A DNA stretch of 64,000 bases, taken from Rhizodiscina lignyota. Its lineage: Eukaryota > Ascomycota > Dothideomycetes > Aulographales > Rhizodiscinaceae. Where the stretch lies: NCBI GenBank assembly GCA_010015805.1, contig ML978124.1, positions 1,674,001-1,738,000 on the forward strand, written 5' to 3'. The notes beneath the pieces were generated by a model. That model was not told where the DNA came from. It saw nothing but the letters and a program-made list of their open reading frames with translations, and did not search any database. Position numbers and translations under genes: made by a program. Shown here piece by piece: positions 14,562-62,009 of the stretch (positions within the stretch are counted from its first letter, which is position 1; each line of letters opens with the position of its first letter).

Positions 14562-16224
14562 TCACTCAAGCTTGCAATAATTCGCCGGGAACGCGCCCCT
14601 TCTGCCCTTCAGTTCGCCCTCCCACCAATCCATCTCACTGTCCGTCTTCTTGACGACTTTGATCTTATCCCCTTCTCTGAATGACAAATCGCCCTCGCCT
14701 TGACCATCAAAGTCATACAGCGCAGTAACATACTGCCATGTCTGGCTCTGGAACTTCTTCGGTGGCGGAGGTGGTGGCTTTTTCTTGCCTACCACGCTGC
14801 CTCCAGGCGTCACGATTGGGGTGCTGGAATACGGATTTATGGTGCCCGTGGCCCGCGGAACGTTGAAGTAGTCCTCCTGCTCGCCCGTGGATGAGCCCTG
14901 AGAGTAAAGGCTGGCACCGCCTGATGACATGCGGATGAGGCCATCGTTGGAGCGCGTGGCCTTTAAGGAGTTGGTGGACGCGTAAGAGTTGATGCGCGGT
15001 TTCTCCATCGGCGTCATTTGCGGCGGCGGAGGAGCCCCGTTTCTGTATGATCCTGGCGACTGGACGTTGGACTTGCTCTGCGGGACAGACGTCTGGCTGC
15101 TTCCTCGTCGAGCAGCGAAGCCATTACGGATGTTGAGACCGGTGTATGACTTCTTCCTGTCACTACCAGCGTCCATGGCCTGGTGGATAGCCTTGCCTTC
15201 AGCTAAGATTCGTAGCTTTTGCTCTGCCTCCATACGCGGCCGTTCGAAATCTTCACGCCATGTCGCTACGATCTCCTCAAGCTCCGGGGCTGGGGACGGC
15301 AGACTGTGGTCTTGACAATAGTTGTGGAGGGTAGTGTAACAGTTTGCCAGGAGCGCATTTTGGATCTGAATCTGAGCTGCGAGGAGATGCGGGAACAGGG
15401 ACAGGAGGCCGTTGACTAGCGGCGGAAGGCATTGCTTGAGACTCTCGTCCGCACTTTCGTAGTCCTGTAAAGCTTGTTATAGACTTGAAATACGCAGGGC
15501 TGAGGTAAAGCTTACAGCTGTCGACCTGTCCAGGTCAATCTGGTGCTTCGCCAGAGCCGTGTTTTCTCTATCAGAGCGTCTAGTCTTCTTCTCCACCGCA
15601 TCAACCCTGCTCTGATATCTCTCGTAGTCCAGCTATATCACCTGATTAGCTGAAGAACACCCACAATAGAATATTAAGGTCCGTACCTTCCTATCCTCCC
15701 TCTTCTTGATAGTCTTCTTCATTGGCTGAATAGCCGCCCTGGCATCTTGTGCAGGCTTAATTATCTTCTCGTCCATCTCCCTTACTTCTTCCAACAAGTC
15801 CTTCTTCAGCTCGGCGTATGCGGTCCTAAGATGGGCAACGCGCTGCATTGGCAGCCTCGGCGTCTGGATTGGCCTATGAGCAGGTTCGTGGCGTTCGTTA
15901 CCTTCATCATCTTTGAAAGTAGCTATGATCGGACTGTAGATGCCCTCGAGCTCGTAGGTGAGGTTGGCTTGGTGCTTGAGGATGTCGGTCCACGCGTCTC
16001 TCCACGCTTGGCTCGCGTCGATGAGCTGAGAATGCAAGTTAGTTTGGTTACCAATGCTTCACTCGTGCGATAAGAGATGATCAGATATGAAGAGGAAGAC
16101 GCTGGAAACTCACAGATTCAAGCGCCCTGTCAGCTTCTTTAAACTCGGCGATCAAAGTGCCCACGACAGCGTTGTCGGCGGTTCTGGGCAGGAACGCACC
16201 GAATTTCCTCTGCATGCGCTGCAT
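14562..16224 (-). CDS. RVS167: Amphiphysin-like BAR-SH3 protein RVS167
   Basis: Four exons: 16224-16114, 16025-15687, 15632-15516 and 15464-14562, giving 489 aa. The BAR domain fills about residues 1-250 (MQRMQRKFGAFLPR, AWRDAWTDILKHQ, QPMKKTIKKREDRK, LDYERYQSRVDAVEKKTRRS). A Gly/Pro/Ser-rich linker with a polyproline run (KKKPPPPPPKKF) follows. A C-terminal SH3 domain runs from YVTALYDFDGQGEGDLSF to GAFPANYCKLE. In yeast this protein pairs with Rvs161 in endocytic vesicle scission and binds actin-patch proteins. All phases agree. Confidence 0.95.
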
Positions 16225-22703: not shown

Positions 22704-23469
22704 ATGGCACGGAATGGGAGGAAACTCAAAAAGAACACAAACAATGACGACAGTCGCACACGAGAAAAGATGTCTTTTGACTTTCTGGCTCCGTCGCACA
22801 AGCTTCATTCCCCTCAAAAGATGTTCCTTGAAGAGACAAGGTTCCATGCAGCGGTATACGCAACTCCAGTAAGCGCATGGTTGGAACAGTAAGTTGCGAG
22901 AGACAAAGAGGATAGGAGAAAATACTTATTAACTTCACAGAAACTTGACAGCTAGGCAAATACCGTCAAGAGGTGAACAAATTGTCCTGAGACATGATTC
23001 TGGGGGGTCAGATTTGGGGCCACATTGTGATGCGGACTCCGAAATCTCCGCAGAGACGCCAACCTCTCAAGGCACCTTCGACATTTCAATTCAAGACGCG
23101 GCGAGGTCAGATCATAGAAGACGTGTAGACGATCGACACAACTATGACGAAGAGGAGAAATTTGCCATTCTGTGGCTGAGGATTGTTCGCGAGGAAAAAT
23201 GGACCGAGGTCTTACGACATTTCCACATTCTCTTCCCTCCGGACGTTCCTCGACGACAGGCTGGAAAAGGGCTTACGGCGCGGTATTTTCGAAGGAGGAA
23301 AGGCGGGCTGGAATGCCGATACTACAGGTTACGTGAAGACCTTTACATGAAGCCACTCCGTAGCGTTGAATACGACTCCGCGAACGATCGTGCTGTCTTA
23401 GCGAGGATGCACCAAACTGCTGGTCTCTCCAATGATTTCTTGGAGCGTCTGCGTCTTCTGGGTGATTGA
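22704..23469 (+). CDS. Small Myb/SANT-like orphan protein
   Basis: Two exons: 22704-22888 and 22941-23469, giving 237 aa. After a polar N-terminus, residues about 130-195 read YDEEEKFAILWLRIVREEKW then FPPDVPRRQAGKGLTARYF and GGLECRYYRLRE. This is a three-helix pattern with spaced aromatic residues like a fungal Myb/SANT-type domain ending in a GGL-x-x-x-YYRL motif. A DNA-binding role is inference. The intron has a GTAAGT donor and a TTAAC-TTCACAG acceptor. The start is the first in-frame ATG; ATG 22770 is an alternative. It is isolated in a gene-poor region. Confidence 0.68.
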
Positions 23470-30329: not shown

Positions 30330-32497
30330 TCATGCTGCATCATCATACTTGGACTCATGCGTCGCGATCGCTCGTCCAGATGGATCCGACTGGTTGCTCC
30401 ATGTCGGCGTCCATCTCATCACGGTGCTAGCGCAGAAGGACGGAAAGTGCTCATCGAACATACAGCGGTACCAGTACGCCTCCTTGGTGTCCGGGATATC
30501 GTCTCCCCACTCGGGCTTGGGGTTTTTCATGTCCTCGTCGGACACATGCAGCTCGGCGTTGTCCTTGAGCGCGTCGATCCAGCCGTAGCCGACGCCATCG
30601 CTGAACTGCTCCTTCTGGCGCCAGAGGATCTTGTCCGGGAGGTAGGGCTCAACGTTGGGTTCGTCGGTTGTGTCGAAGGCTTTACGGAGGATGTACTTTT
30701 CTATGCGGTCCTTTGTGATCAACTTATCGGCCGGGTCGATGTTCATGGCAACATCGAGGAACTGTTGTGGATGTTAGCGTTGCCTTCTACTTTCCCTCCT
30801 AAATCGAGTTTATATGAAGGTGAACTTACCTGCTTGTCCAAGAAAGGCACACGAGCCTCGACGCCCCATGCACTCGTCGACTTGTTCGCCCTCAGACAGT
30901 CGGCATAATGCAGATTCATTACTCTCTTGATGCACTCCTCATGGAAAGCCGCCTTGCTTGGAGCAGCATGGAAGTACAGGTAGCCTCCGAAGATCTCATC
31001 AGATCCCTCGCCAGACAACACCATCTTCACACCCATCGCCTTGATCTTCCTGCTCAACAAGAACATCGGAGTCGAAGCGCGGATCGTTGTGACATCGTAA
31101 GTCTCGAGATGATAGATGACATCGGACAGAGCGTTGAGACCATCCTCAATGGTGAAGGTGAAGTTGTGGTGACGTGTGCCTAGGAAGTCTGCCACCTCTT
31201 GCGCAGCTATTGAATCCGGCGCACCAGGCAGGCCGATAGAGAAGGAGTTCAGTTGCGGAAGAATTTGTACAGTAGACAGGTGGTCCTCCGCATCGATACC
31301 GACGAGATGATCCGGGTTGCTTCCATTGACGCCGTTGGATTTCGACTTGACTTCCTCGTTGAGGCGGGTGATTTCACGTTGCGCGATTGACGCCACGAGA
31401 CTAGAGTCGAGGCCACCGGACAGGAGAACGCCGAAAGGTACCTCAGCCATGAGTCGCTTACGGACGGCCCTTTCGAACGTCGTGCGGAGGAGCTTATAGT
31501 CAACTGGGGTAGTAGGTATGTTGCTTGGCTCCATCAGCCATTTCGGTGTATAGTATCTCGTCATCTTATCCGTCTTCGAGTCGTAGACGTGACCGGGTGG
31601 GAACGTAATGATGTTGTCGCAAACGGTGTGGAGGCATTTCATTTCGGAGGCGAAGTATACAGCGCCTGGTGTCTTGCTCGAGCGGCCCATGTAGAATGTA
31701 GTAATTCCAATAGGATCCCTTGCTGCAAGGATCCGATCTTGCGTCTTGTCGTGGAGAACCCATGAGAACATGCCGTCGAGGTATTTCGGCGTGTCGAGAT
31801 CATGCTCGAGGTACTAAACGGCCATAAGCATGTTACTTCTATACATGCAACCTCCAAGCACGTACCAACGGTATTATCACTTCGCAATCCGAGTGCGTAT
31901 GGAAGTTGTATGGCTTCTTTAACTGCTTTCGCAGCACCCTGTGATTGTAGATCTCGCCATTGACCGCCAAAGATACCGTCTGCTCGTCGTTCACAAGTGG
32001 CTGCGCTCCACTCTCTATTTGTATTCGTTAGGGATGTCCGATTATATGGTGTGGCGCGAAGGATGCATACCGACGCCGACGATACTCAATCGCTCGTGCA
32101 CAAGGACTAGAATTCTGTCAGAAACTGAACAAGTGCCATTATACACTGAGCACACTTACTTGTATTGTTTGCGACCCAGTTGCCACCTATTATACTTCAG
32201 CATCTTGTTTCTTGAATTTATTGTCAGGTCATGTTTGACTCACTCCAGTCAGGCCCTCGATGGCGAACACTGACAATCCTGTTAGCACTGTCCGAAAAGA
32301 AATCCAAGAAATACTCACGCCTTTCCCAGCTTCAGGGCCATAGGCTTGAACTTTTGCACATCAGGATGGCTATCACGCGTCAGTCTACCTGTCCACACAT
32401 AATTCTCATGCCGTGAGCGGTCTGTATTATCCCGCCACACACGGATAGAGAAATCTCAGTGGTAAACGTACCAATGGCAAGCGAAAATACCACACAT
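30330..32497 (-). CDS. ASN2: Asparagine synthetase, glutamine-hydrolysing
   Basis: Eight exons: 32497-32472, 32369-32319, 32269-32244, 32186-32160, 32106-32071, 32014-31866, 31813-30830 and 30761-30330, giving 576 aa (about 570 in yeast). The spliced start [16 protein letters not shown] exposes Cys2 as the amidotransferase nucleophile. [11 protein letters not shown] and [10 protein letters not shown] complete the N-terminal glutaminase. [17 protein letters not shown] is the PP-loop of the synthetase half, and [17 protein letters not shown] is a further signature. The enzyme makes Asn from Asp, Gln and ATP in the cytosol. The first five exons are only 26-51 nt. A Gcn4/CpcA-type site lies 95 bp upstream. 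Confidence 0.97.
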
Positions 32498-36533: not shown

Positions 36534-37196
36534 CTAGTTAGAAAAGGGATCGGTCCTGGTGCCCCACCAGGTGAGGAACAGCGACAAACCGACAGTCTCG
36601 AAGACGCGGGCGACAGCACCGACGGCAACAGTGTCCAAGGGGCGCTTCTCAGTGAGGACTTGGGAGATGAACTGAGCAGACAGTTAGCATTCAGATCAGT
36701 CACTTAAAATTCAAAAGCTATAGAGCTCAAATGCCACTTACCGAAGGAGCCGAGCTAGCGAAGAAGATCAAAGTACCCATGTACGCAGCGCCCTTGTAGC
36801 TGAGCGTGCCAGTAGCGTTCAACAGCGCACCGACGCCATATGTCTGAATAGCAGAACCGACGATCGAGCTGCCCCACGAGGCGGCGGCAGTAGCAGCCTC
36901 CTTGGACCTGAAGAACTCCTCCTTGGTGTTGGCAGCCTGTGCCTGGCGGTAGGTCTCACCGAAGACAGGGGCGAGCACGGCGAGCGAGGCGGCGTGCGTG
37001 AAGACGGTGCCGAGGGCAATTGCGGAGGGCTTGACGGGTGGGAGATCTGGAGAGAGTGCTTGTTAGATTTACCTGAAGCATACGAAGAGATTTCGAACGA
37101 CGACGATGGACTTCAGAATGGCGCAATCGTCCTTTGTTTACGTATTGCGGGGAAGGAGAAGCGAAGGTGGATAGACGTACAGTGCAGAGTCGCCAT
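36534..37196 (-). CDS. DUF1761-like small membrane protein
   Basis: Three exons: 37196-37181, 37046-36742 and 36671-36534, giving 152 aa. Exon 1 encodes only MATLH plus one base. Several hydrophobic, Gly/Ala-rich segments suggest four membrane helices (ALGTVFTHAASLAVLAPVFG, SIVGSAIQTYGVGALLNATG, AAYMGTLIFFASSAP, VAVGAVARVFETVGLSLFL). The pattern resembles fungal DUF1761 proteins, whose function is not known. Reading frame and GT/AG signals agree at both introns. Confidence 0.82.
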
Positions 37197-38417
37197 TGTG
37201 TCGACTTGAGTGCTCGAGTGAATTCGAGAGTAGTCTTATTGCAATTGAGATGTAGTCTGAGGTACTTTGAGACTTGTTCAGGTGGGTTGATGGTGTGATG
37301 TTGGGGTTGCGCAGCGGGAGCTTTATTCGATTGCGGAGCGATGACGTTTGTTTGCATCACCAGACCTTTGGAACTTGGACCTGGCCTTTTTGCTTTCTCC
37401 CAGCCAATCTGGAACTAGCGTCGATCATGGAGGCTTTCATCGGCTCAAGGTTATGCCAATCTTGTTTCTAAAGTCCATGGAAGTTCCCCCTATTTCTCGA
37501 AGAATCGCATTCCCTCCGTTTTCTGCATCGGTTCGGGTACCCGCCTGACCCTCTGAGCATGCTTCGAGCAGAACGTCATCTGAGTGGAAGGTAGGACCTC
37601 TTTAGATCGATATGCTTCATGTTCAGTTTCCTTTCCTAGCTCTGTCAAAGCCTCGACAAGGATGCATCACCCTACGTGTCCATTGAAGGCATTCAGCGAG
37701 ACGGTTGAGCACCTCGAGGGTGGCAAAAAAGGTTGGTCGTAGCTTTCAAGACACTGAACAGTAATAGTGTGCAGCCTCATGCCTGTCATTGACAAATTGT
37801 ATAAGCTTACATTCCGAAGAATATACAACTGAGCTTTCAGAGATACTCTCTCTATTACCCTGGAGAGCAGGAGCTGATTGCCACTGAGCGATTACAGCCC
37901 GCTAGCGGCGAAATATTCTCTCACCCTCGAGCGCACTTCATACAACATCGGATTCGGTAACTGCTGGCCGCAACAAAGTGTTTGCGACGCATGTGAGTTG
38001 GCCTGCGGCCGAGTTTGAATGGCATGGCACAAACTCGAGAGTGCCCATTCGGGAAGATATTCTTCAGCCTAACGGCGAATAGGCCCTCACCAGCGAGGAG
38101 CAGAGGAGGCGGAAGTCACAGCGGAAAATGAACAGAGTGAAGAATTTCCCCTCCGTAGGAGAAAAAGCAAAGGGGTGCGGACCGGAAATGGTATGAGCAA
38201 ATATGAGGCCGCCTACGGATCAGATAAAGACTTAGGGCCGCTCGTAGACGGAGATCAAGGCATTCTAGGCCAGGGTGAATAACATCAATGCTGAGCGAAG
38301 GAAGCAAAGAATCAGAGGAGCTGAAGGCAAGGTCTTGCGGGAAGGAAAAGGGAATCTTCAGCCTCTGTAGAGTAACTGAATTTACAAATGGAATCATTTG
38401 GCAACGCAAATGCAGGC

Positions 38418-38496
38418 TAGTCTCTAAAATAGCTATCTGATATGGGAACCCTGTTCTGTAGAGTATACCGCCTGCAGCACAAACATGACTAAAAGA
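38418..38496 (+). repeat. Diverged dispersed repeat, copy 1
   Basis: Starts tagtctctaaaatagctat and ends aaacatgactaaaaga. The same two blocks, in the same order and orientation and with similar spacing, recur at 42006-42091. Nothing identifies the parent element. Confidence 0.5.
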
Positions 38497-38570
38497 AAAA
38501 GGAGGTTAGACAGTGAATACAAAACTCAATCGCATTCTGCGAGAAAAAGAAGGTAGAAGATCCAATATTA

Positions 38571-38586
38571 AAAAAGGGCAAAAAAA
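38571..38586 (-). terminator. RNA polymerase III terminator of tRNA-Thr
   Basis: On the minus strand a run of six T (38586-38581) starts 6 nt after the tRNA 3' end and a run of five follows, the usual pol III stop. Confidence 0.7.
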
Positions 38587-38591
38587 GAAGA

Positions 38592-38723
38592 TGCCCACTG
38601 ACAGAATCGAACTATCGATCTTCTCATTTCGTAACATACGAGTGAGACGCTTTACCACTCTGTTTACAGTTAGTCGGAAATTTTCATATTTAAGATTTTA
38701 GGAGACTTACGAGCCAAGCGGGC
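38592..38723 (-). tRNA. tRNA-Thr(CGT) with a 9 nt anticodon-loop intron and a 51 nt D-arm insert
   Basis: Read 5'-3' on the minus strand: acceptor GCCCGCT (38723-38717), TG, D stem GCTC (38714-38711), then a 51 nt insert (38710-38660), then D loop AGTGGTA. The anticodon stem is TCTCA/TGAGA with anticodon CGT. A 9 nt intron after position 37 contains TACGA, complementary to TCGTA of the anticodon loop. The T arm is GATAG-TTCGATT-CTGTC, followed by acceptor AGTGGGC and A73. Without both inserts the molecule is 72 nt and pairs throughout, and it resembles yeast tRNA-Thr(CGU). The 51 nt insert begins GTAAGT, carries CTAAC and ends CAG, and it splits the A box. Whether the gene works or is inactivated cannot be told from sequence. 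Confidence 0.8.
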
Positions 38724-39248
38724 AGAAAACATCAGCTCTCTGAAACTGCATGTTAACTATAAAGACTTGACTAATACTGCACACAGAATTTTTTTGGTCG
38801 ACCCACTTTTACCCATTGCATCCATGGGTAGTCAGGAACATCCTCAGCTGTCTCCAAGGCTACAAAATCTTAGAATCTTCTTTACACCTTACATTTCCTG
38901 AAACCAATTTTCCCCTGACTGACCCTTACCGATGTTTCTAGCTCCTGCTCCGCCCAAGTGGAGAGCCTACCGCTGAAGTGGTACCCAAGTAAGAAATTCG
39001 GAGAAACCTTTTGGGCACATCTTTGGCTACCATTGGCAATTTTAGAGAATCAGAATTATTCTGTCATTGTCTAAACCTCCTCCAATGATGCTTCAGTGAC
39101 TATTGGAAGACTCCAGGGTCCATACAGAGACATAAAGTCGCTCTTTGGGGTGGCTCAATCGTGCTCTGCTTTCGCAATCCCGGTTGCTCCTAGCACACCA
39201 TTTCTGTCAGGGACTGGTAAAGAGAGGGATATCTGATTGATTTGTGCT
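38724..39248. other. Intergenic: tRNA-Thr 5' side and COQ2 promoter
   Basis: 525 bp. No gene or motif recognised. Confidence 0.35.
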
Positions 39249-40871: not shown

Positions 40872-41722
40872 TCACTTACATCCAGTCATGATCCCCAAGT
40901 GCAGCTGGAAACCGCCACGTTTGTATGTTGGATTCTCCGATGTTGCAATACTAGGTTGAGGAGCGGTGTTTGCCACAGGCCCTTGTTTCTGTTTCTTAGG
41001 TATCAATCGCTTCTGAGGTTTGGTCCGCCAGCTGTCGTCGTGGCCGAACAAATGCGCATGCCCATTCGTTTTTGCAACTGAAGGTATACTGGACTTCGCA
41101 CGAAACTCCAACGCCGTGATCGTTTGCGGCTCTTCAACTACATTCTTATCTGCTGCATCCTCATCTGCTCGCTCCGGCCCATTTAACAGGTCTTCGAAAC
41201 GCTTCTGTGCTATCCGCGCAATCTCTTCTTCGCTCCATTCTCGCCTTGCTATCATCGAATCGATCATTCTTCTCCTAGCGTCGACACCAAGCTCAGTCCG
41301 CACCCATCGCAGCATATCTTCCGGCGACATCCATCCTTTGCTTATCATATGCTCTAGCAGTGCGTCTTCATGCTCTTGCGTTAACGTCCGCCTCCTGCCC
41401 ATTTCCTTGTGCTTCGGCGGTCGCACGGATCCATACATCGCGAGATTCTTCTTCCACTGGCGAATGGTGCGAATCGCTACTCCGGTTTCATTTTGAATCT
41501 CTGTTGTCTTCCGGCCTTGGAAGAGGAGTTTCACGACGCTTGCGACAACAGCGGAGTCGTAGCCATGGGTAGAAGCGTAGGGATCATGATGGGAACATTT
41601 CTTCGACTTTGGGGCTATAGGTGGCATCTGCATATCCGACTTAGTATCAAATCTGCCAAAGAAGACCTAGGCATGCTTACCGTTGCAGGAAGATTTGCGA
41701 GAAGATCAATGCGGAGTTGCAT
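40872..41722 (-). CDS. HTH protein resembling the Tc1/mariner transposase DNA-binding half
   Basis: Two exons: 41722-41681 and 41627-40872, giving 265 aa. Residues about 37-80 form a homeodomain-like HTH (AVVASVVKLLFQGRKTTEIQ, TGVAIRTIRQWKKNL). A basic linker GRRRTLTQ follows, then a second helical block about 90-160 (LLEHMISKGWMSPEDMLRWV, SMIARREWSEEEIARIAQKR). Two HTH units joined by a GRPR-like linker is the layout of Tc1/mariner transposase N-termini. The remaining 100 residues are polar and hold no DDE/D catalytic core, and I see no terminal repeats nearby. It may be a host-adopted DNA-binding protein. The intron has a GTAAGC donor and an ATGCAG acceptor. Confidence 0.72.
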
Positions 41723-59881: not shown

Positions 59882-60771
59882 ATGCCGAAGAAGAAGAGAG
59901 CAGATTTAGCTCGCGAGAGTCTGAACAGGGAACCGTCATTCGAGTAAGGTTATTTGAATCCCTTTGAAGGTCCTTGCTAACTCGGCCAAGGAATGGAAAA
60001 ATTGGCCCTTGCGGCATAATGATTCTCGCAGGCCCAGAAAAGAAACCATTTCTAATTCATAAGGATCTTGTTGCACACTACTCACCGTATTTCCGTTTTA
60101 TGATCGAAGGACACCCTTGGCGAGCTTGGGTAGCTGGAGAGGACTCCTCCATTCCGCTCGAAGATGTAAATCCTGCCACGGTCGGACTCTTTCAACAGTG
60201 GTTATACAGTTCTAAACTACCAAATCCCGTTTGCGACCGCCCTCATGATGACATCCACTATACTAGGAGCGATATAGAAGCCACGAGTCTTCACAAGACG
60301 GTGCTACTATACACGTTCGCGGAACAGTACGACACCCCTGCCCTCAAGTTAGCGACCATGAATTGGATTCTCAGATACGTCACTGTGAATTTCATGTTTT
60401 GTTATCCTTGGTACGAAACAGTCATCGTAGCATTTGCTAAGCTTGAAGAGAACGATCCTTTGCGGAGGCTATTCATCGAACTTTACGCCGACAGATGGAC
60501 TGGGTTTGAGGAGGACGCACAGCTTCGCTGCGCCCCTCGCCTACCGTCTGACTTCACATATGGCGTCATGAAGCTCAAGGGATAGCTGCAACATGAGGCA
60601 AGAGACATGTCATACGAGAGTCGGGAGAATTGGTGCGACTACCACGTTCACGCTGATGAGGCGGAGAAGAGTGCGTGTGCAGAGGCTCGCGACAAGGAGA
60701 TAAGCGGTTTAGAAGTCGAGTGCTATTGGACCGAGAGCGAGAGTGAAGGAGAAGATACGTCGCATAAGTAA
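59882..60771 (+). CDS. BTB/POZ domain protein with an in-frame UAG (first of a tandem pair)
   Basis: Two exons: 59882-59943 and 59991-60771. Translation starts MPKKKRADLARESLNREPSF. A BTB fold follows (MILAGPEKKPFLIHKDLVAH, YSPYFRFMIEG, NPATVGLFQQWLYSSKLP), then helices (YTFAEQYDTPALKLATMNWI). A TAG lies at 60583-60585 after 218 codons. The same frame then stays open for 61 codons to TAA at 60769-60771, and CDYHVHADEA there matches CDYHEHSDEA in the second BTB gene. So the part after TAG is old coding sequence. The gene either ends early, is read through (TAG is followed by C), or is decaying. Fungal BTB proteins of this kind have no assigned function. Confidence 0.78.
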
Positions 60772-61104: not shown

Positions 61105-62009
61105 ATGGCGAACGTAGCTGGTACCGGCAAACAGCCGACTTTCAGGTGAGTGTAATTTGATTGGACTTAAAACTCGGCAATCTGATAAGACGTAGACATC
61201 TCACAATTCGTGGGGCGAAGATGGTGACTATCGAAGTTGGCCCCGAAAAACATCCATTCATCGCTCACAAAGACCTTCTCTGCTACCATTCGCCTTATTT
61301 TCGAGCTGCCTTCGAAGGTTCATTCATGGAAGCTCAACAAGGCAAAATCACACTTGACGAAGTGCTCCCAGAGACCTTTGGATGCTTTCTTGACTGGCTT
61401 TACATGGGCAAGATTCCATACGTACCGGGAAACGAGGTCGATTATTCTACTTCCTCAGACGCCGGCGCGACATCCGATAGCGATGACAATACCCCTTGGA
61501 AGGCGCTCTACACCTTTGCCGACCGCTACAACACCCCAAAGCTGAGAACTGTCATAATGGACAAGGTCTTGGCATATGTTAGAATTTGGAACTGGGTTCG
61601 CGATGGACCCGATGAACTGCTCGACTTGTACATCTTCGGAGATCGATTCGTCATCCCCGAACTCAAGCGAGCAATCATCGATAAGTGGATCTTTGTCTAT
61701 GATCACGCTCCAGAGTACGAACTCATCATCCGAGCCTACGCGGAGCTTCCAGAATCGTCGGGCTTACGGAAGCTCCTGGTCAACCTTAACATCAAGCATT
61801 TCGAGCAACGGTACGAAGGTGAGCTGCGAAAAGAGCTCCCTCGTCTATTCTTAGAGGATATGTATATTGGCTACGCAACAACTCGAAGAGGCATAAACAT
61901 CGATCCATGCGACTATCACGAACACTCCGATGAGGCGGACCGGAAAGATGCCAGTAGAAATGGAAAGCGTTGGGGTGAGAGAAAACGATGGATGTTCATA
62001 CAGGAGTAG
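61105..62009 (+). CDS. BTB/POZ domain protein (second of a tandem pair)
   Basis: Two exons: 61105-61145 and 61196-62009, giving 284 aa. After MANVAGTGKQPTFRHLTIRG the BTB fold reads MVTIEVGPEKHPFIAHKDLL, YHSPYFRAAFEGSFMEAQQG and LDEVLPETFGCFLDWLYMGK. A helical region follows (LYTFADRYNTPKLRTVIMDK, LYIFGDRFVIPELKRAIID). The basic C-terminus ends GERKRWMFIQE. BTB domains mediate dimerisation or Cullin-3 binding; the actual partner is unknown. It shares exon layout with its upstream neighbour, so the pair probably arose by tandem duplication, followed by marked divergence. Confidence 0.87.

Follow-up and report, generated by a model that had tools for sequence, protein, structure and literature searches.

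The locus and its joined tRNA

On the minus strand of the window, the 64-kb stretch of Rhizodiscina lignyota DNA analysed here, positions 38592-38723 hold three blocks of 13, 23 and 36 nt that are split by inserts of 51 and 9 nt. With both inserts taken out, the blocks join into a 72-nt tRNA whose anticodon, CGT, makes it a tRNA-Thr(CGT). Exon 1 (38711-38723) supplies positions 1-13 of the cloverleaf and is followed, between positions 13 and 14, by an insert of 51 nt in the D arm (38660-38710) that begins GTAAGT, contains CTAAC and ends in CAG, the marks of a spliceosomal-type intron. Exon 2 (38637-38659) covers positions 14-37 and includes the anticodon at 38638-38640, as placed by the sequence and by ARAGORN. 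It is separated by a canonical 37/38 intron of 9 nt, TGTTACGAA (38628-38636), which can pair with the anticodon loop, from exon 3 (38592-38627), where ARAGORN and a consensus match place positions 38-73 and the B box.

The joined molecule forms 20 of the 21 standard cloverleaf pairs, the sole exception being C13-A22, and each of the 19 conserved tRNA positions that were compared carries the expected letter. Two of the pairs, 5-68 and 51-63, are wobble pairs that could be native or could represent early decay. Cloverleaf, conserved positions and CGT anticodon are together those of a nuclear tRNA-Thr(CGT) once both inserts have been removed. The preliminary description of this DNA, which had claimed that a tRNA-Thr(CGT) emerges only after removal of the 9-nt and 51-nt segments, is borne out by ARAGORN, by the borders and by the conserved features, and its account of the coordinates, borders and GTAAGT, CTAAC and CAG signals of 38660-38710 stands as given.

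The surrounding elements were compared with those of a Pol III type 2 gene. After a 5-nt trailer there is a run of seven T (38580-38586), read directly from the minus strand and likely to be a Pol III terminator, and four T directly before G1 (38726-38729) lie in the likely leader. Further upstream on the same strand, 33-38 nt from G1, a TATA-like TATAGT (38756-38761) can be read directly and counts as weak evidence of a promoter element. Measured against consensus sequences, the B box matches at 9 of 11 letters, and the A box is whole only after splicing: its 5' part, the TGGCTC of TGGCTCAGTGG, occupies 38711-38716 in exon 1, its 3' part is the start of exon 2, and the 51-nt insert separates the two halves, as had been claimed. 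The spliced form matches the A box consensus in full, and before splicing the closest match, at 6 of the 7 fixed letters, lies within the D loop.

The D-arm insert among the introns of the window

The insert was compared with ten protein-gene introns of the window, kept by hand according to reading frame from 43 candidates, many of them mutually alternative. A splice matrix was built from these ten, with branch sites placed by hand; an eleventh intron (36672-36741) was found later and stands outside the matrix. The D-arm insert scores 20.6 on this matrix, equal to the best of the ten, and ranks first among the 127,898 51-mers on both strands of the window. At 51 nt it falls within the range of the local introns (51-88 nt), and its best-scoring branch A lies 10 nt from the end, compared with 9-14 nt in the ten. 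These values uphold the earlier claim that the insert matches the protein-gene introns of the window in length and signals, and in splice sites, branch site and length alike it has the character of a U2-type intron of this region. A strict search for GTAAGT, CTAAC and CAG within segments of 40-120 nt returned three segments in the window, the D-arm insert included; the other two are protein-gene introns, one in an asparagine synthase gene (30762-30829) and one in a DUF1761 gene (36672-36741), and the joints of both fall within Pfam domains. Such placement was found for six of the eleven local introns, whose joints lie in Asn_synthase, IU_nuc_hydro, UBA, IBN_N, Sugar_tr and DUF1761 domains, in a test that covered eight of the eleven (all but 1034-1116, 16026-16113 and 22889-22940); for the JmjC and nucleoside-transporter introns, the Pfam search of the piece gave no family. 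The DUF1761 gene itself lies on the minus strand at 36534-37200, and the branch region of its intron, CTAACTGT, has eight letters in common with that of the D-arm insert, a stretch too short to indicate kinship. Together with the gene content, the introns of the window suggest a filamentous ascomycete.

The insert departs from the local introns in two respects. Its G+C content of 0.29 is lower than that of any of the ten (0.37-0.52), and the base preceding its 5' splice site is C, a letter found there in none of the ten introns, six of which have G. Since the tRNA constrains the exon letters, we propose that the perfect GTAAGT could offset the missing exon match to U1. Runs of four T do not occur in the insert, which says little, because nine of the ten local introns are also free of them. 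Folded alone, the insert behaves much like its shuffled versions (z -0.96, equalled or bettered by 33 of 200). The search for similar sequences suggested in the preliminary description, run on the 64-kb window, returned no copy of the insert, the best other match being 12 nt long (E 0.13). Four exact pattern scans for relatives, three of viral_contigs and one of genome_contigs, gave 0 matches; both collections consist of viral and prokaryote sequence, and the result has no bearing on fungi.

On these signals, the sequence gives good support to reading the D-arm insert as a spliceosomal-type intron. The other possibilities, that it arose as a chance insertion, reflects an assembly error or is an endonuclease-cut intron of the kind found in Cyanidioschyzon, are very improbable even when taken together. 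The last of these has a counterpart in the non-canonical D-arm introns that PMC4090602 describes for a red alga and for nucleomorphs; against it, and against the other two, stands the first rank of the splice signals among all 51-mers. An endonuclease-type origin appears the less likely also from a rough bulge-helix-bulge test in one register, where the borders of the insert formed 2 of the 4 central pairs and 0 of the 4 outer ones; this is a weak test, for the canonical intron itself formed only 3 and 2 of them, and the splice signals remain the main argument. Only the 9-nt insert has the features of a canonical 37/38 tRNA intron. It follows position 37, and the fold predicted for the unspliced RNA joins it to the anticodon loop by a helix of five pairs, in agreement with the pairing that had been described. 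The same fold keeps the acceptor stem and is better than that of shuffled sequences (z -2.26, equalled or bettered by 5 of 200), so that the precursor is not shapeless.

Detection of the tRNA across the joint

Given the whole 64-kb window, ARAGORN reported no tRNA, whether anticodon introns were disallowed or allowed. Four versions of the gene were then supplied within a 221-nt stretch around the locus, following the earlier proposal that a tRNA search be run with and without 38660-38710. A tRNA was found in both versions that lacked the D-arm insert and in neither that retained it: the unspliced gene and the gene minus only its 9-nt insert gave nothing, removal of both inserts gave Thr(CGT), and removal of the 51-nt insert gave a tRNA that, with introns allowed, was named Ser(CGA) because ARAGORN sets the 9-nt intron a few bases early. 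The Rfam tRNA model matches the locus from the D arm on, over model positions 9-63, at 19.1 bits compared with a gathering score of 29. A RAGATH-25 match on the plus strand at 38525-38555 (20.9 bits, gathering score 49) was dropped as probably due to chance.

How readily such a joint arises was assessed by cutting out each segment with a relaxed 5' splice site, a branch site and a YAG end, and running ARAGORN across the resulting joint. Among 153 intron-like segments in the window, the only one to yield a tRNA was the D-arm insert, and none of 3,899 segments did so in 20 dinucleotide shuffles. On these figures, chance is not expected to produce a tRNA-like joint where an intron-like segment is removed. 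When the test was loosened to admit every segment of 40-100 nt bounded by GT and AG, tRNA calls came from 5 of 28,423, all at the tRNA-Thr locus, compared with 2 of 141,691 in five shuffles. These five segments have five different borders, three being cut on the minus strand and two on the plus, and each takes out most of the D-arm insert. The alternatives to 38660-38710, namely 38662-38704 and 38662-38713 on the plus strand and 38658-38710 and 38658-38706 on the minus strand, were discarded as excisions that nearly coincide with that of the D-arm insert. As five borders give calls, ARAGORN alone does not fix the ends of the insert; they are fixed by the splice signals together with the conserved positions, and 38660-38710 is the only one of the five that also has the required branch site and YAG end.

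A working gene or an interrupted one

We favour the reading that the locus is a functional nuclear gene for tRNA-Thr(CGT) whose D arm has acquired a spliceosomal intron, and would give it a probability of about 0.6. The grounds are found in the sequence: a mature tRNA across the joint, splice and branch signals, a canonical 9-nt intron and the T7 tract. From these we infer that the gene may be expressed and processed by both machineries. In such a scheme, Pol III would transcribe the gene, its A box being divided, from the B box, perhaps aided by the TATA-like element; the spliceosome would take out the 51-nt intron in the nucleus and so restore the D arm; the restored D arm would permit full folding and the removal of leader and trailer; and the 9-nt intron would be excised last by the tRNA endonuclease and ligase. 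The spliceosome would probably act before the endonuclease, since it is the spliceosome that restores the D arm. In yeast, intron removal by tRNA endonuclease and ligase is cytoplasmic, and with a nuclear spliceosome the order of processing would follow from this separation. The further proposition, that here is a natural nuclear tRNA which depends on spliceosome and tRNA endonuclease alike for its maturation, and whose A box by consensus is present in the spliced RNA and not in the gene, seems to us to have slightly better than an even chance.

The condition of the mature part bears on whether the gene is alive. In simulated decay of the joined tRNA by random substitution (20,000 trials per step), the full set of 20 pairs, conserved positions and anticodon was left intact in 29%, 9.2%, 2.7% and 1.0% of cases after 1, 2, 3 and 4 changes, which implies that the gene has been under selection or else was interrupted recently. 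ARAGORN, for its part, is tolerant of decay: after 2, 3, 4 and 5 random changes it still found a tRNA in 297, 292, 262 and 218 of 300 copies. Among threonine codons in seven hand-chosen reading frames, four of which have one stop in the counted stretch, ACG accounts for 56 of 233. The intact conserved features, the B box match, the T7 tract and the use of ACG codons favour a live tRNA gene.

The preliminary description had offered the alternative that the insert killed the gene, and the intact mature part weakens this idea while the split A box keeps it in play. On such an account, an intron or intron-like element would have entered one of several tRNA-Thr(CGT) copies, whether through reverse splicing, through break repair or as an introner-like element, and by splitting the A box would have stopped transcription, with little time since for decay. 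The two wobble pairs are compatible with this, and with 0-2 substitutions an intact appearance would be only mildly surprising at the rates simulated for 1 and 2 changes; the perfect signals would likewise be carried along by a newly moved intron. The general remark in PMC4090602 that, in eukaryotes, a short insertion in the D or T arm of a tRNA gene mostly affects a single copy out of many synonymous ones and that such copies are regarded as pseudogenes, with nucleomorphs and Cyanidioschyzon as exceptions, also points this way. A recent death has to contend, however, with a T7 tract, a B box and an anticodon intron that are all in place, and with the lack of a second copy of the insert within the 64-kb window, and we regard it as unlikely, though as a serious competitor. 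A live gene processed by the spliceosome may alternatively have its precursor made by Pol II inside a longer RNA. Spliceosome substrates are usually Pol II transcripts, and such an origin would account for the tolerance of a split A box; it sits poorly with a T7 tract 5 nt past the tRNA, with the lack of any listed reading frame of at least 150 codons on either strand of 37415-39236 (where a non-coding Pol II RNA is possible) and with the position of the nearest minus-strand protein gene found, the DUF1761 gene (about 36534-37200), which starts some 1.4 kb downstream. We consider this origin improbable.

For a working gene of this kind, the nearest precedent lies in fungal U6 and U3, whose introns lend support to the presence of a spliceosomal intron in a tRNA gene. 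Fungal U6 and U3 genes are described as carrying spliceosomal introns in PMC5832005, which states that, among small structured RNAs, these two alone are known to be frequently split by an intron, and U6 is given as a Pol III transcript in PMC10484740. As in U6 snRNA and U3 snoRNA, an ordinary spliceosomal intron would lie inside a small structured RNA; unlike them, the host here is a tRNA whose internal promoter is split by the intron and which has an endonuclease-type intron as well. The reference list of one paper names work on fission yeast U6 and a 2016 paper on the repeated gain of U6 introns in fungi. Koehrer, Vogel and Domdey are said to have engineered in 1990 a yeast tRNA precursor carrying a pre-mRNA intron, a construct that would in principle demonstrate that the pre-mRNA pathway can splice a tRNA precursor; that construct was artificial, whereas the tRNA-Thr(CGT) case would be natural. 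D-arm introns, sometimes accompanied by an anticodon intron as at the present locus, are described for tRNA genes of Cyanidioschyzon merolae and of nucleomorphs (PMC4090602, PMC3978253, PMC9602550). Those of C. merolae are linked to the tRNA endonuclease and bulge-helix-bulge motifs, in contrast to the spliceosomal signals of the R. lignyota insert. A title in the reference list of PMC11782384 refers to mRNA-type introns in fungal 18S rDNA, which offers a comparable case of such an intron in a non-coding gene outside Pol II transcription, although that is an rRNA gene transcribed by Pol I and the present gene encodes a tRNA. Among the open-access papers listed in our searches, a set with few subscription papers, none was seen to describe a tRNA gene with a natural spliceosomal intron.

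The literature we drew on keeps tRNA introns apart from mRNA introns: eukaryotic tRNA genes are stated to have at most one intron (PMC8450103), and recognition by the endonuclease is set in contrast to recognition by snRNAs (PMC4390854), with algal exceptions noted in PMC4090602. If the reading of a working gene is true, the spliceosome would serve a tRNA precursor in nature, and the locus would offer a simple system for studying how introns enter non-coding genes. It would also mean that tRNA finders can overlook such genes, since both ARAGORN and Rfam at its gathering score miss this one.

Elsewhere in the window, two BTB-domain reading frames on the plus strand (59968-60585 and 61161-62009) are adjacent and possibly tandem duplicates, and a minus-strand reading frame of 264 codons (40872-41666) looks helix-turn-helix-like by eye and has no Pfam match.
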